A DNA stretch of 36,957 nucleotides from Gammaproteobacteria bacterium (GTDB lineage Bacteria; Pseudomonadota; Gammaproteobacteria; UBA6429; Thiohalophilaceae), in assembly GCA_026197095.1 (NCBI GenBank), contig JAPHTF010000003.1, forward strand, positions 1 through 36,957. The letters are read 5' to 3'. The stretch's first letter is position 1, and each line of letters begins with the position of its first letter. The position numbers and the translations under genes were made by a program. Under the pieces are notes generated by a model, which did no database searches, had not been told where the DNA came from, and saw nothing but the letters and a program-made list of their open reading frames with translations. Positions 29,405 to 35,215 of this stretch are shown piece by piece.

Positions 29405-30139
29405 TTACTGCAGTAAATCACCCCAAAGAATTTGTGCGGCTGTAATAGCAGAAACGGCAGCCGTTTCAGTGCGTAAAATACGGGGACCAAATTTAACTGC
29501 ATGGAAGTTTGATTTTTTAATAAGTTCTGAAATCTCATGAGAACTCAATCCACCTTCCGGCCCTATTATAAGATTGAGCTTATTGTTTTCAGGGTTGATC
29601 GTTCTTAACGTTGCTGAAGCCAAAGGATCAAAGATAATGGATAAGTCACTTACCGTTTCAGCCCATGGTAATAAACTGGCTGTCGTATTTAAAGCTGGTA
29701 AGACGCTTCTTCCACATTGCTCACAAGCACTAATCATTATTCCTTGCCAATGTTGTAAACGTTTTTGAATACGTTTTTCATCAAGATTTACTACACAATG
29801 CTCAGTAAACAGCGGTGTAATTTTTGTAACACCAAGTTCAACTGCTTTTTGAATGGCATAATCCATGCGTTCACCTTTAGAAATGCCCAGCCCAAGATGT
29901 ATCTCCAGGTTTGATTCTGTTGTTAAATTTATTGATTCTAAAATTGTAACGAAGGCGTTTTTTTTATTAACTATTTCAACCATAGCTGAAAATTCAGCAC
30001 CTTCACCGTTAAATAAAATAAGTTTTGAATCTGGTTTTAGTCGTAATACTTTAATGGCATGTTGAAAAGCATGTTCACTTAATTCAACGGATTGACCTAT
30101 GGTTAACGGGGATGGCTGGTATATTCTTGGTATGCGCAT
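29405..30139 (-). CDS. rsmE: 16S rRNA m3U1498 methyltransferase RsmE
   Basis: This SPOUT-fold enzyme methylates U1498 of 16S rRNA with SAM. An N-terminal PUA-like domain (about 1-70) is followed by the knotted domain. Motifs include GLGISKGERMDYAIQKAVELGV (read in two parts, about 88-109), IGPEGGLSSHEI (about 192-203) and the C-terminal LGPRILRTETA-like motif (here FGPRILRTETAA, about 216-227). The 244 residues match E. coli RsmE. In many gammaproteobacteria it is near gshB; here the chp cluster separates them. It is convergent with chpC and isolated from the upstream small gene by a strong terminator. Confidence 0.95.
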   Translation of the reverse strand: MRIPRIYQPSPLTIGQSVELSEHAFQHAIKVLRLKPDSKLILFNGEGAEFSAMVEIVNKKNAFVTILESINLTTESNLEIHLGLGISKGERMDYAIQKAVELGVTKITPLFTEHCVVNLDEKRIQKRLQHWQGIMISACEQCGRSVLPALNTTASLLPWAETVSDLSIIFDPLASATLRTINPENNKLNLIIGPEGGLSSHEISELIKKSNFHAVKFGPRILRTETAAVSAITAAQILWGDLLQ

Positions 30140-30519: not shown

Positions 30520-31365
30520 TTATAAACCTAAATTTTTCCAGATCGCTAAAGTGGGTGCAGTAACATTCATGGTATAAAAATGTAATCCTGGTGCGCCGGC
30601 TTCAAGTAGCTGCTGACACATTTCACTAATCACATCTTCACCAAATGCTTTAATCGAATCTCTGTCATCACCATAGCTTTCAAGACGTTTACGAATCCAG
30701 CGTGGTATTTCTGCTCCACACATATCTGAGAAACGCGCAAGTTGGATGTAGTTTGTAATAGGCATAATACCTGGAACAATAGGGATAGTTAAATTGAGAT
30801 CTTCACAATCATTAACAAAACGAAAATAGGCATCGGGGTTAAAAAAGTACTGAGTGATCGCACTGTTTGCACCTGCTTCAACTTTACGTTTGAAGTTATT
30901 TAAATCATCTTCTGCAGAAGATGCCTGGGGGTGAAACTCCGGATAGGCGGCTACTTCGATATGAAAGTGGTCATTGGTTTCATTGCGGATGAACTCAACA
31001 AGTTCATTTGCAAAACGAAATTCACCAATATCGTGAGTGCCAGAAGGCATATCACCGCGTAAAGCAACAATACGATTAATGCCTTTATCTTTGTAGCTTT
31101 TTAATATTTCACGAACATTTTCTTTAGTTGAACCCACACAGGATAAATGAGGTGCAGCATTGAAGCCTGCTTCCTGAATTGAAGTCACAGTATCGAACGT
31201 GCCTTGTTGGGTACTACCACCGGCGCCAAAAGTAACAGAAAAGTATTTTGGATTTAAAGCACCAAGTGTATCTCTGACTTTAATAAGGTTTTCAGCACCT
31301 TCGGGTGTTTTAGGTGGAAAAAATTCAAAACTAAATTGCTGTGGGTATTCTTGTTGGCTTTCCAT
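30520..31365 (-). CDS. metF: 5,10-methylenetetrahydrofolate reductase MetF
   Basis: MetF makes 5-methyl-THF, the methyl donor for methionine synthase, using FADH2 or NADH. The TIM-barrel protein has 281 residues. The start FSFEFFPPKTPEG (about 11-23) carries the catalytic glutamate, VTFGAGGSTQ is at about 44-53, RGDMP at about 103-107, and ITQYFFNPDAYFRF at about 180-193. AGGTAAC precedes the ATG. It lies downstream of ahcY and metK on the same strand, so one set of genes covers methyl-THF, SAM and SAH handling. It is separated from ahcY by a palindromic repeat, and no riboswitch is seen before it. Confidence 0.96.
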   Translation of the reverse strand: MESQQEYPQQFSFEFFPPKTPEGAENLIKVRDTLGALNPKYFSVTFGAGGSTQQGTFDTVTSIQEAGFNAAPHLSCVGSTKENVREILKSYKDKGINRIVALRGDMPSGTHDIGEFRFANELVEFIRNETNDHFHIEVAAYPEFHPQASSAEDDLNNFKRKVEAGANSAITQYFFNPDAYFRFVNDCEDLNLTIPIVPGIMPITNYIQLARFSDMCGAEIPRWIRKRLESYGDDRDSIKAFGEDVISEMCQQLLEAGAPGLHFYTMNVTAPTLAIWKNLGL

Positions 31366-33223: not shown

Positions 33224-34381
33224 TCAGATACCTGCCGCGTCACGTAACGCATCTGCTTTATCGGTTTGTTCCCAGCTGACATTAAGATCGTCACGGCCAA
33301 AGTGACCATAAGCCGCGGTTGGTGCATAAATTGGACGAAGTAAATCAAGCATTTTCACCAGGCCACCGGCACGTAAATCAAAATGTTCACGGACTAACTC
33401 AACAATGCGAGAATCTTCAACTTTACCCGTGCCAAACGTTTCTACACTAATAGAAGTAGGTTCAGAGACACCGATCGCATATGAAACCTGAATTTCACAA
33501 CGTTCAGCTAAGCCAGCAGCAACAACATTTTTAGCCACATAACGACCCGCATAGGCGGCAGAACGGTCGACTTTTGATGGATCTTTACCAGAGAAAGCGC
33601 CACCACCGTGACGTGCCATACCACCATAGGTATCAACAATAATTTTGCGCCCCGTTAAACCACAGTCACCAACAGGGCCACCAATAACAAAACGGCCGGT
33701 TGGGTTAATGAAATACTTAGTGTCTTTAGTCAACCATTCGCCGGGCAATATGGGCTTAATAATTTCATCCATTACCGCCTCAATCAGCGTATCTTGCGCG
33801 ATATCAGGTGTATGTTGTGTTGATAATACAACTGCATCGATACCAACAGGTTTGTTGTCAACGTAACGGAAAGTCACCTGGCTTTTTGCATCAGGACGTA
33901 ACCAGGGTAAGGTGCCATTTTTGCGTACTTCAGCTTGACGCTTAACCAGACGATGAGCATAAGTAATCGGTGCTGGCATTAAAACGTCAGTTTCATTACT
34001 GGCGTAACCAAACATGAGTCCTTGATCGCCTGCACCTTGTTCGTGCGATTCATCTTCATCAACGCCCATCGCGATATCTGCAGACTGTTTATCAATTGAA
34101 GTTAAAATCGCGCAGGATTCATAATCAAAGCCCATATCCGAACTGTTGTAACCGATTTCCTTAATGCGATTACGCACAACTTCATTCATATCAACCCACG
34201 CAGTCGTGGTGATTTCACCGGCTAAAACAACCATGCCAGTGTTTACCAACGTTTCACAGGCGACACGTGCTTTAGGATCTTGCTCTAAAATAGCATCTAA
34301 AATTGAGTCTGAAATTTGATCGGCAACTTTGTCTGGATGGCCTTCTGATACTGATTCTGATGTAAATAAGTGCTTACTCAT
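33224..34381 (-). CDS. metK: S-adenosylmethionine synthetase MetK
   Basis: MetK makes SAM from methionine and ATP. The 385 residues show all signatures: [16 protein letters not shown] (about 9-24), [12 protein letters not shown] (about 115-126), and [19 protein letters not shown] (about 257-275) with phosphate- and metal-binding residues. GAAGGA (34391-34396) lies nine bases before the ATG. Upstream are, in order of transcription, a near-consensus promoter, a SAM-II-type riboswitch and an intrinsic terminator, so high SAM should stop transcription before the gene. It heads the minus-strand metK-ahcY-metF block. Confidence 0.98.
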
Positions 34382-34397
34382 TATTTTGTTTCCTTCA

Positions 34398-34433
34398 TAA
34401 AAAAACCCGCTTTAGCAAAAGACTAAAGCGGGT
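34398..34433 (-). terminator. metK: Intrinsic terminator in the metK leader
   Basis: Arms 34405-34415 and 34423-34433 (ACCCGCTTTAG against its complement) form an 11-bp perfect stem with a 7-base loop, followed on the minus strand by seven T (34399-34405). It lies between the riboswitch and the metK ribosome site, so it works as an attenuator. Its upstream arm is also exactly complementary to the last conserved block of the riboswitch (34456-34464). Confidence 0.92.
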
Positions 34434-34455
34434 TTTTGGAATTTAGAACTTGGTT

Positions 34456-34508
34456 CCGCTTTAGCCGTATTTTTTAAGCGCCCGCAATCTGTCTTCAAAT
34501 CGGCGCTG
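34456..34508 (-). promoter_or_regulatory. SAM-II/SAM-V-type riboswitch before metK
   Basis: P1 is AGCGCC (34502-34507) with GGCGCT (34477-34482), a perfect 6-bp stem. Its loop begins with GATTTG (34496-34501) and ends with TTGC (34484-34487). An A-rich linker and GCTAAAG (34459-34465) follow. The order stem, GATTT, TTGC, stem, A-rich, GCTAAAG is the hallmark of the SAM-II pseudoknot, shared with SAM-V. Binding of SAM lowers expression in known cases. The class within the SAM-II/V group is not resolved here. Confidence 0.82.
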
Positions 34509-34519
34509 TAACGCGGGCT

Positions 34520-34547
34520 ATTATAGCGATAGTTCAGCTTAAATCAA
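34520..34547 (-). promoter_or_regulatory. metK promoter
   Basis: On the minus strand a perfect TATAAT (34520-34525) is preceded by TTGATT (34542-34547) with a 16-bp spacer. The expected start near 34512 places the riboswitch at the very 5' end of the transcript, which supports both calls. Confidence 0.75.
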
Positions 34548-34654
34548 AGCCTATCTCGAAGTAGTTAAAGTGAATCTACAAATTTTAACAAAATTTATTG
34601 TATGCTTAGTTCTTGATATGGCTGATTACCTAATTTTAAAGAAGAGGATATTCC

Positions 34655-35215
34655 ATGGTTAGTTTAGAAACACCCGTTTGTGAGTTTGATAAAGCGGCAG
34701 TTGAATTTTCACTGCCTGGTGTTGATGGTAAAAACTGGAACCTGGCTGATTGCGCGGGTGAAAAAGGATTACTCGTGATGTTCATCTGTAATCACTGTCC
34801 CTATGTAAAAGCGATTCGTGAAAGGCTGGTAAGAGATACCACTGCACTTAAAGAATTAGGCATTAATACGGTTGCCATTATGTCGAATGATCCGACTGAA
34901 TATGAAGAAGACTCTTTTGACAATATGAAGAAAATTGCCAGAGACTACCAGTTCTCTTTCCCCTATTTATTAGATGAATCTCAGCAGGTTGCTAAAGCCT
35001 ATGGCGCCGTATGCACACCAGATTTTTTTGGCTATAACGCCGACTTGAAGCTGCAATATCGTGGGCGTTTTGATGCCAGTCGTAAGGAAACTGCCGCTGA
35101 TGATGTTCGCCGAGACTTATTTGAATCCATGTCAGAAGTTGCACGAACAGGAAACGGACCGGCAGAACAGATTCCGAGTATGGGTTGTTCTATTAAATGG
35201 AAGAATGAAGACTAA
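34655..35215 (+). CDS. Thioredoxin-fold (AhpC/TSA-like) redox protein
   Basis: This 186-residue protein has a peroxiredoxin/TlpA-type thioredoxin fold. The active site is CNHCPYVK (about 48-55), a CxxC embedded in the pattern common to a widespread but poorly studied family annotated as thioredoxin family protein. VAIMSNDPTEYEEDSF (about 74-89) and AYGAVCTPDFFGY (about 112-124), with the cis-proline-type TP motif, follow. There is no signal peptide, so it is probably cytoplasmic. AGAGGA lies about 8 bases before the ATG. It is divergent from metK. The substrate is unknown. Confidence 0.88.
   Translation: MVSLETPVCEFDKAAVEFSLPGVDGKNWNLADCAGEKGLLVMFICNHCPYVKAIRERLVRDTTALKELGINTVAIMSNDPTEYEEDSFDNMKKIARDYQFSFPYLLDESQQVAKAYGAVCTPDFFGYNADLKLQYRGRFDASRKETAADDVRRDLFESMSEVARTGNGPAEQIPSMGCSIKWKNED

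Follow-up and report, generated by a model that had tools for sequence, protein, structure and literature searches.

The metK leader and its genomic setting

The window analysed here, a 36,957-nt stretch of gammaproteobacterial DNA, carries on its minus strand metK (33224–34381, ATG at 34381), which encodes an ordinary S-adenosylmethionine (SAM) synthetase: the 385-aa product contains the N, M and C domains of Pfam S-AdoMet_synt and matches solved S-adenosylmethionine synthases with E-values down to 7.5e-203. Between metK and ahcY, on the same strand, lies an SAH riboswitch (RF01057; 32977–33091; 47.3 bits against a cut-off of 37), which is a second, neighbouring switch separate from that of metK; SAH matches occur in 38 of the 40 order genomes. 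Beyond the SAH switch are metF (30520–31365) and an RNA methyltransferase gene (29405–30139), and SAM and SAH sensors thus stand in one cluster.

All features of the metK leader lie on the minus strand. Most upstream is a sigma-70 promoter-like pair (34520–34547), composed of a −35 element TTGATT (34547–34542), a 16-nt spacer and a −10 element TATAAT (34525–34520). With 10 of 12 consensus matches, this pair agrees with the initial annotation, which had described from the letters alone a SAM-II-type riboswitch, terminator and antiterminator in this leader and had judged the promoter spacing to fit. The promoter score by itself is weak evidence, since shuffles of the same 401-base region average 1.0 such sites. 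In relatives, a promoter-like pair with at least 9 of 12 matches (best site per leader, counted without a shuffle control) precedes the aptamer in 40 of 45 order leaders, at a median distance of 10 nt (range 6–35) from aptamer stem P1, and TTGACA-16-TATAAT, matching at 12/12 positions, occurs in eight metK leaders.

Downstream of the promoter-like pair, the SAM-II aptamer (SAM_alpha, RF00521) spans 34440–34516 as an Rfam match of 36.0 bits (E 6.3e-07). Its stem-loop P1 (34478–34506), assigned from the sequence and its alignment to the Rfam model, pairs GCGCC (34506–34502) with GGCGC (34482–34478) over 5 bp and encloses GATTTG (34501–34496) and TTGC (34487–34484). The aptamer 3′ strand, GGCTAAAGCGG (34456–34466), would serve both as the pseudoknot partner in the SAM-bound state and as the 5′ arm of the antiterminator. 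Next, past a linker in which folding predicts a small hairpin, comes the intrinsic terminator hairpin (34401–34437), which has 16 bp including A-T pairs at its base and appears in both the MFE and the centroid structure. By sequence, the upstream side of the terminator carries CCCGCTTTAGTC (34432–34421), and the segment CCGCTTTAGTC (34421–34431), consisting of the terminator 5′ arm CCGCTTTAG (34431–34423) and the loop bases TC, would form the antiterminator 3′ arm. The downstream side, GCTAAAGCGGG (34416–34406), is followed by a U-tract of seven T (34399–34405) and by the Shine-Dalgarno region GAAGGA (34396–34391). The leader as a whole folds better than 200 of 200 shuffles (z −3.46). A consensus terminator scanner listed no terminator in 34300–34700, and the hairpin assignment comes from MFE and centroid folding. 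That the hairpin might instead terminate a plus-strand gene was considered and rejected, as no plus-strand ORF of at least 80 aa ends there.

Aptamer family and pseudoknot

The SAM-II-type assignment of the initial annotation is borne out by Rfam, whose SAM_alpha model matches the leader at the cut-off. With the leader scanned alone, its score equals the curated cut-off of 36 with nothing to spare; a whole-window Rfam scan at the gathering threshold reported the SAH switch alone and did not list the aptamer. It is the sole SAM_alpha match at E ≤ 0.001 in its own genome, and the top score among order relatives is 43.6 bits. The conserved core elements GAUUUG, UUGC and GCUAAAG are all present and aligned to the model. 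Of related families, the SAM-II long-loop model gave 22.5 bits on the leader against a cut-off of 44, and SAM-V (RF01826), which the initial annotation had named beside SAM-II, is absent from the 45 matches listed for the leader at E up to 10.

The pseudoknot register was examined across the order, the class and the named genomes (among the matches listed) in 246 distinct aptamers, all picked by the core motif; four loci (L059, L078, L145 and L151) also contribute their second motifs. Among the loop/3′ position pairs scanned, the highest mutual information (0.183, the next being 0.104) falls on loop-9, the loop base 5′ of the conserved C, and 3′+9, the base three past GCTAAAG; these two form standard pairs in 73% of the 246 aptamers vs 64% expected. 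This peak supports the assigned register. In the window copy the covarying pair is broken (A.G), which reduces the final pseudoknot helix to one C-G pair. For 60% of SAM-II a final helix of 5 bp is given by Huang and Lilley (2018, PMC6061858); the helix has 1, 2 and 3 bp in 11, 20 and 9, respectively, of 40 distinct order aptamers. A stable final 3′ helix is not found in the window copy; its membership stands as a short-helix form, the 5-bp helix not being universal in the family. The idea that beta- and gammaproteobacteria have a short-helix form of their own was dropped, as the 21 alpha-titled aptamers are mostly short too (0–5 bp, with 18 of 21 at most 3 bp). The final helix of class aptamers ranges from 0 to 6 bp, and in these aptamers shortness goes with the search motif and not clearly with taxon.

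Taken as sequence evidence, these comparisons support a real SAM-II aptamer in the window leader, which would be expected to bind SAM. Two other SAM-sensing families resemble it in part. SAM-V likewise forms an H-type pseudoknot whose final helix is short and whose SAM site is nearly the same (PMC6061858), but is translational, whereas the metK leader appears to be transcriptional, and its model does not match. The SAM/SAH riboswitch (RF01727) also provides a SAM-sensing metK leader in proteobacteria, in Rhodobacterales (PMC2864571), but belongs to another family, with no RF01727 match in the window at the gathering threshold or in the leader at E up to 10.

Terminator, antiterminator and their conservation

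As the initial annotation had noted, nine letters of the aptamer 3′ strand, CTAAAGCGG (34464–34456), recur exactly in the terminator 3′ side (34415–34407). By a hand estimate, a given 9-mer would recur by chance within ~60 nt with a probability of 60/4^9, or ~2e-4. The terminator 5′ arm can indeed pair with either copy; the antiterminator, however, is not 9 bp long as had been proposed but 11 bp, through an additional G.U and an additional G-C pair. Its duplex was evaluated at −19.2 and −19.0 kcal/mol and beats all 200 shuffles of the hairpin.

To place the two structures in order of synthesis, growing-transcript folds were taken every 3 bases, with the SAM-bound pseudoknot lying outside the model. 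The antiterminator is absent before 34427 and has a probability of 1.00 from 34421 through 34409; the terminator takes over at 34406, with a probability of 0.99, once its 3′ arm is complete. For the full-length leader, the terminator state (−38.2 kcal/mol) lies 7.2 kcal/mol below the forced antiterminator state (−31.0 kcal/mol). Given this difference, control would have to be kinetic, as metK would otherwise be terminated with or without SAM, and the antiterminator could win only by holding on during passage of the U-tract. Since the competing strands are identical, strand exchange would gain nothing until the outer pairs form, which would fit slow displacement. Within these folding models, the leader thus combines the two elements of an attenuator, an intrinsic terminator and a mutually exclusive antiterminator, which share the aptamer bases.

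Conservation of this arrangement was assessed in 253 distinct leaders. A terminator was found by our criterion in 197, leaving 56 (55 with none and 1 short or with N). The 197 hairpins derive from the order (42, of which 13 precede metK), the class (75, 8 before metK) and named genomes (80, 1 before metK, among the matches listed); as these sequences share ancestry and were selected through the aptamer motif, the counts are to be read as non-independent events. Eight loci without the core pattern (L038, L047, L109, L174, L186, L194, L199 and L226) were left out of this set and of the 246 aptamers above, as were duplicates and stretches with N. In a separate selection of hairpins, a wrong one was taken for L021 and none for L029 (both at contig ends); the shuffle-test set misses L008 and L013, each of which has a hairpin in that selection. 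The aptamer strand varies too little for covariation to be followed pair by pair in the antiterminator, and tests of one-sidedness and against shuffles were used instead.

In pairing with their own aptamer strand, order hairpins beat at least 190 of 200 dinucleotide shuffles in 12 of 13 metK leaders and 26 of 29 others; the corresponding counts are 3 of 8 and 49 of 67 in the class, and 0 of 1 and 32 of 79 in named genomes (among the matches listed). The real hairpin beat its own reversal in all 13 metK and all 29 other leaders of the order, in 5 of 8 and 64 of 67 of the class, and in 1 of 1 and 59 of 79 of the named genomes (among the matches listed). Complementarity was no better than that of shuffles in the metK leaders L057, L190 and L197 (ranks 96, 78 and 89 of 200).

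Furthermore, a plain terminator might carry CTTTAG in either arm, and the orientation test set CTTT[AG]G, the complement of aptamer CTAAAG, on the 5′ side of the hairpin against the mirror case, in which C[CT]AAAG occupies that side. The complement was found there in 98 of 197 hairpins and the mirror in 0 of 197 (named part among the matches listed). By sample, these are 37 of 42 in the order and 51 of 75 in the class (together 88 of 117, with the mirror in 0 of 117) and 10 of 80 in the named genomes, mostly alpha- and betaproteobacterial (among the matches listed). Four hairpins, all in the named set (among the matches listed), have CTTT[AG]G on the 3′ side alone, and a looser five-letter version of the test gave 116 vs 7 over the 197 hairpins (named part among the matches listed). 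Across the sequences compared, the order and class samples follow this orientation rule strongly, whereas the named genomes, mostly alpha- and betaproteobacterial, follow it weakly.

The copy in the 3′ arm behaves differently from this complement. CTAAAG is lacking from the 3′ arm of 87 of the 98 hairpins that bear CTTT[AG]G on the 5′ side (named part among the matches listed); among metK hairpins it is present in 10 of the 13 from the order and 2 of the 8 from the class, and it occurs in none of the other 176 hairpins (96 of them from the order and class, the rest among the matches listed). By eye, all nine letters are identical in 9 of 13 order and 0 of 8 class metK hairpins, and the same-genus L043 keeps eight letters. 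The identity on which the initial annotation had built its design is thus shared by most order metK hairpins and by none of those from the class, and an exact identity confined to metK leaders is not what selection keeps. The feature kept in the order and class leaders is the complementarity of the terminator 5′ arm or loop to the aptamer, independently of the 3′-arm copy, which is a by-product. Where the metK stem is altered, the complement reappears in the loop, as seen by eye in L211 (CGCTTTTGCC) and L037 (CGCTTAAGCC) against CGCTTTAGCC, and is partly present in the loop of L014, L033, L162 and L248.

On this evidence it is very likely that the metK leader is a SAM-II riboswitch repressing metK through transcription attenuation, and competition between terminator and antiterminator through the aptamer 3′ strand is strongly supported by the comparison of leaders. 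Transcription would start a few bases upstream of P1. With abundant SAM, the pseudoknot would close as the aptamer emerges and hold the 3′ strand GGCUAAAGCGG; CCGCUUUAG would then be free to pair with the downstream CUAAAGCGG, forming the terminator at the U-tract and switching metK off. With scarce SAM, the 3′ strand would pair over 11 bp with CCGCUUUAGUC as the antiterminator, and polymerase would clear the U-tract before this helix is displaced, allowing metK to be made through what would be a kinetic choice. The aptamer match, the two mutually exclusive helices, the terminator, the promoter-like sequence and the complementarity conserved among relatives are observed; the start site, SAM binding by this copy, SAM-dependent termination and the kinetic nature of the choice are inferred.

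A reading in which the aptamer controls translation through Shine-Dalgarno access, like SAM-V and rare SAM-II, and the hairpin is a fixed, SAM-independent attenuator appears improbable. The final pseudoknot helix, at 1–3 bp in the 40 order aptamers, is short, SAM-V being described with a 2-bp P2a (PMC6061858), and terminator stability alone would keep the hairpin formed; the Shine-Dalgarno GAAGGA, however, comes only after the terminator, with 60 nt between it and the aptamer 3′ strand, and a SAM-independent hairpin gives no reason for the one-sided placement of CTTT[AG]G (88 vs 0 of 117 in the order and class). We find it harder still to credit that the repeated CTAAAGCGG is due to chance or is purely structural, the likeness of a strong terminator to the aptamer end being accidental: hairpin arms mirror each other, so that one accidental match brings the other, and leaders within one family share ancestry, but the repeat has the low chance estimate given above in a single leader, and the complement is kept in order and class terminators and moves to the loop when the stem differs.

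Distribution, the metXZ element and significance

SAM_alpha matches are found in 36 of 40 order genomes at E ≤ 0.001 and in 15 of 40 above the cut-off. The 47 order matches comprise 13 before metK, 33 before metZ (O-succinylhomoserine sulfhydrylase) and 1 at a contig end (L029), which lies inside a metK-type leader. The metZ assignment was made by tblastn for 31 loci and by translation for L038 and L047. Gene names were checked with Pfam/NCBIfam on single proteins; the MetZ, MetX, MetA and MetH labels exceed the curated NCBIfam cut-off (one protein each), and a MetN-like protein falls below it. The possibility that the window's own genome lacks a metZ switch was rejected, since its metZ (L266, G000:C165:38400-39845) starts 75 bases from a contig end; the metZ leader, which is expected to hold a second switch, is therefore missing from the assembly. 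A blastn search of metK and its leader against plasmids returned matches to the metK coding sequence only.

In the class, 369 genomes were sampled; SAM_alpha has a match at E ≤ 0.001 in 118 of them and exceeds the cut-off in 31, which suggests that the Rfam cut-off undercounts SAM-II in the class. Among 100 class loci (20 + 80 fetched by place, a part of the class matches), 86 precede methionine or SAM genes, namely 75 metZ, 9 metK, 1 metX and 1 metN-like, and 14 are unassigned. A pattern scan of named genomes gave at least 117 stretches with mostly alpha-, beta- and gammaproteobacterial titles; taxon lists (59 beta, 24 gamma and 21 alpha, among the matches listed) were sorted by the taxon in the record titles, several of which seem to be mislabelled metagenome bins. 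A SAM-II variant with switched specificity for a different ligand can be all but set aside, for although changed-ligand variants are known for SAM-I (PMC10853860) and the loop GACAGATTGC differs, outside the core, from the consensus in Rfam, GAUUUG, UUGC and GCUAAAG all fit the SAM_alpha model and the downstream genes, metK included, are SAM/methionine genes.

Several further arrangements were observed among these loci. In four metZ leaders of the window's genus (L022, L039, L041 and L045), the script-called start lies 241–478 bases after P1, with repeat-like stretches between. Ten loci (L187, at 887–964 minus, L059, L078, L089, L123, L124, L138, L151, L167 and L185) have a second SAM-II-like motif 93–168 bases behind the first GATTTG, with GATTTAA in 7 of the 10; that of L187 scores 17.9 bits with SAM_alpha, and SAM-V does not match it at E up to 0.5. 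Tandem arrangements, both of SAM-II and of SAM-II/SAM-V, have been described before (PMC9481103). By eye, an extra hairpin or long insert separates the P1 3′ arm from GCTAAA in L084, L087, L088, L099, L149, L172, L174, L179 and L184. SAM-II also precedes further methionine genes, encoding a MetN-like protein (below the family cut-off) in L077, a cystathionine gamma-synthase family protein in L088, MetA in L165 and MetH in L181; L073 and L164 resemble L077 by translation.

The 59 beta-titled loci (among the matches listed) stand before metX (38), metZ (7), metH (3) and others or none (11), and the Rfam cut-off is exceeded in 8 of 18 beta loci scanned. metZ follows SAM-II in Novimethylophilus, Nitrosospira and Methylophilales HTCC2181, and metX does so in most other beta loci. 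Leyn (2014, PMC4239095) published the metXZ RNA element of betaproteobacteria as a new element without an assigned ligand; it has a pseudoknot and a terminator, for which an antiterminator was proposed. Of 35 genomes, 30 have it upstream of metXW; the gene behind it is metZ in three Methylophilales, in Nitrosospira multiformis and in Thiobacillus denitrificans. The metXZ element and SAM-II share a pseudoknot, a terminator/antiterminator and the same genes in the same groups, and differ in that metXZ was presented as new and with no assigned ligand; the comparison here is with its text and figure legend. Beta loci such as L069, L070, L082, L143 and L177 fit the metXZ description. Because the same genes in the same beta groups carry SAM-II, the orphan metXZ element, matched by description, is very probably SAM-II, an identification that we did not find in the open-licence literature.

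The initial annotation had regarded a gammaproteobacterial SAM-II with transcriptional readout as worth recording, yet this kind is already in print. Coxiella burnetii is among the SAM-II carriers of Corbino (2005), who also gives putative terminators, and Barrick and Breaker (2007, PMC2258182) report isolated gammaproteobacterial examples, naming terminators as the commonest SAM-II platform in alpha- and betaproteobacteria and describing the mechanism as not established. The majority of SAM-II is transcriptional according to PMC6061858. For the metZ SAM-II of Sinorhizobium meliloti, Scheuer (2022, PMC9373788) presents a predicted terminator, with which RNA levels in vivo agree. That system shares with the metK leader the aptamer core, a promoter near P1, a methionine/SAM gene behind and a terminator after the aptamer predicted to form on SAM binding; the metK leader differs in its target, in its single-pair final helix and in a terminator 3′ arm that copies the aptamer end exactly. 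No paper on SAM-II before metK in gammaproteobacteria was found in the open-licence literature, and PMC3766115 does not mention SAM-II.

Altogether, we think it likely that SAM-II is also a common beta- and gammaproteobacterial SAM sensor with metK among its targets, that its gammaproteobacterial antiterminator lies in the terminator 5′ arm and that metXZ is the same riboswitch; if so, a published orphan element gains an identity. The comparison of leaders offers sequence evidence for how SAM-II may reach its terminator, a point left open in PMC2258182 and given as a prediction in PMC9373788. In the window, two RNA sensors in neighbouring genes would cover both halves of the SAM cycle, metK with SAM and ahcY with SAH, and the metK switch would close a feedback loop in a gammaproteobacterial family, in which SAM shuts off its own synthetase through a device that relatives share.
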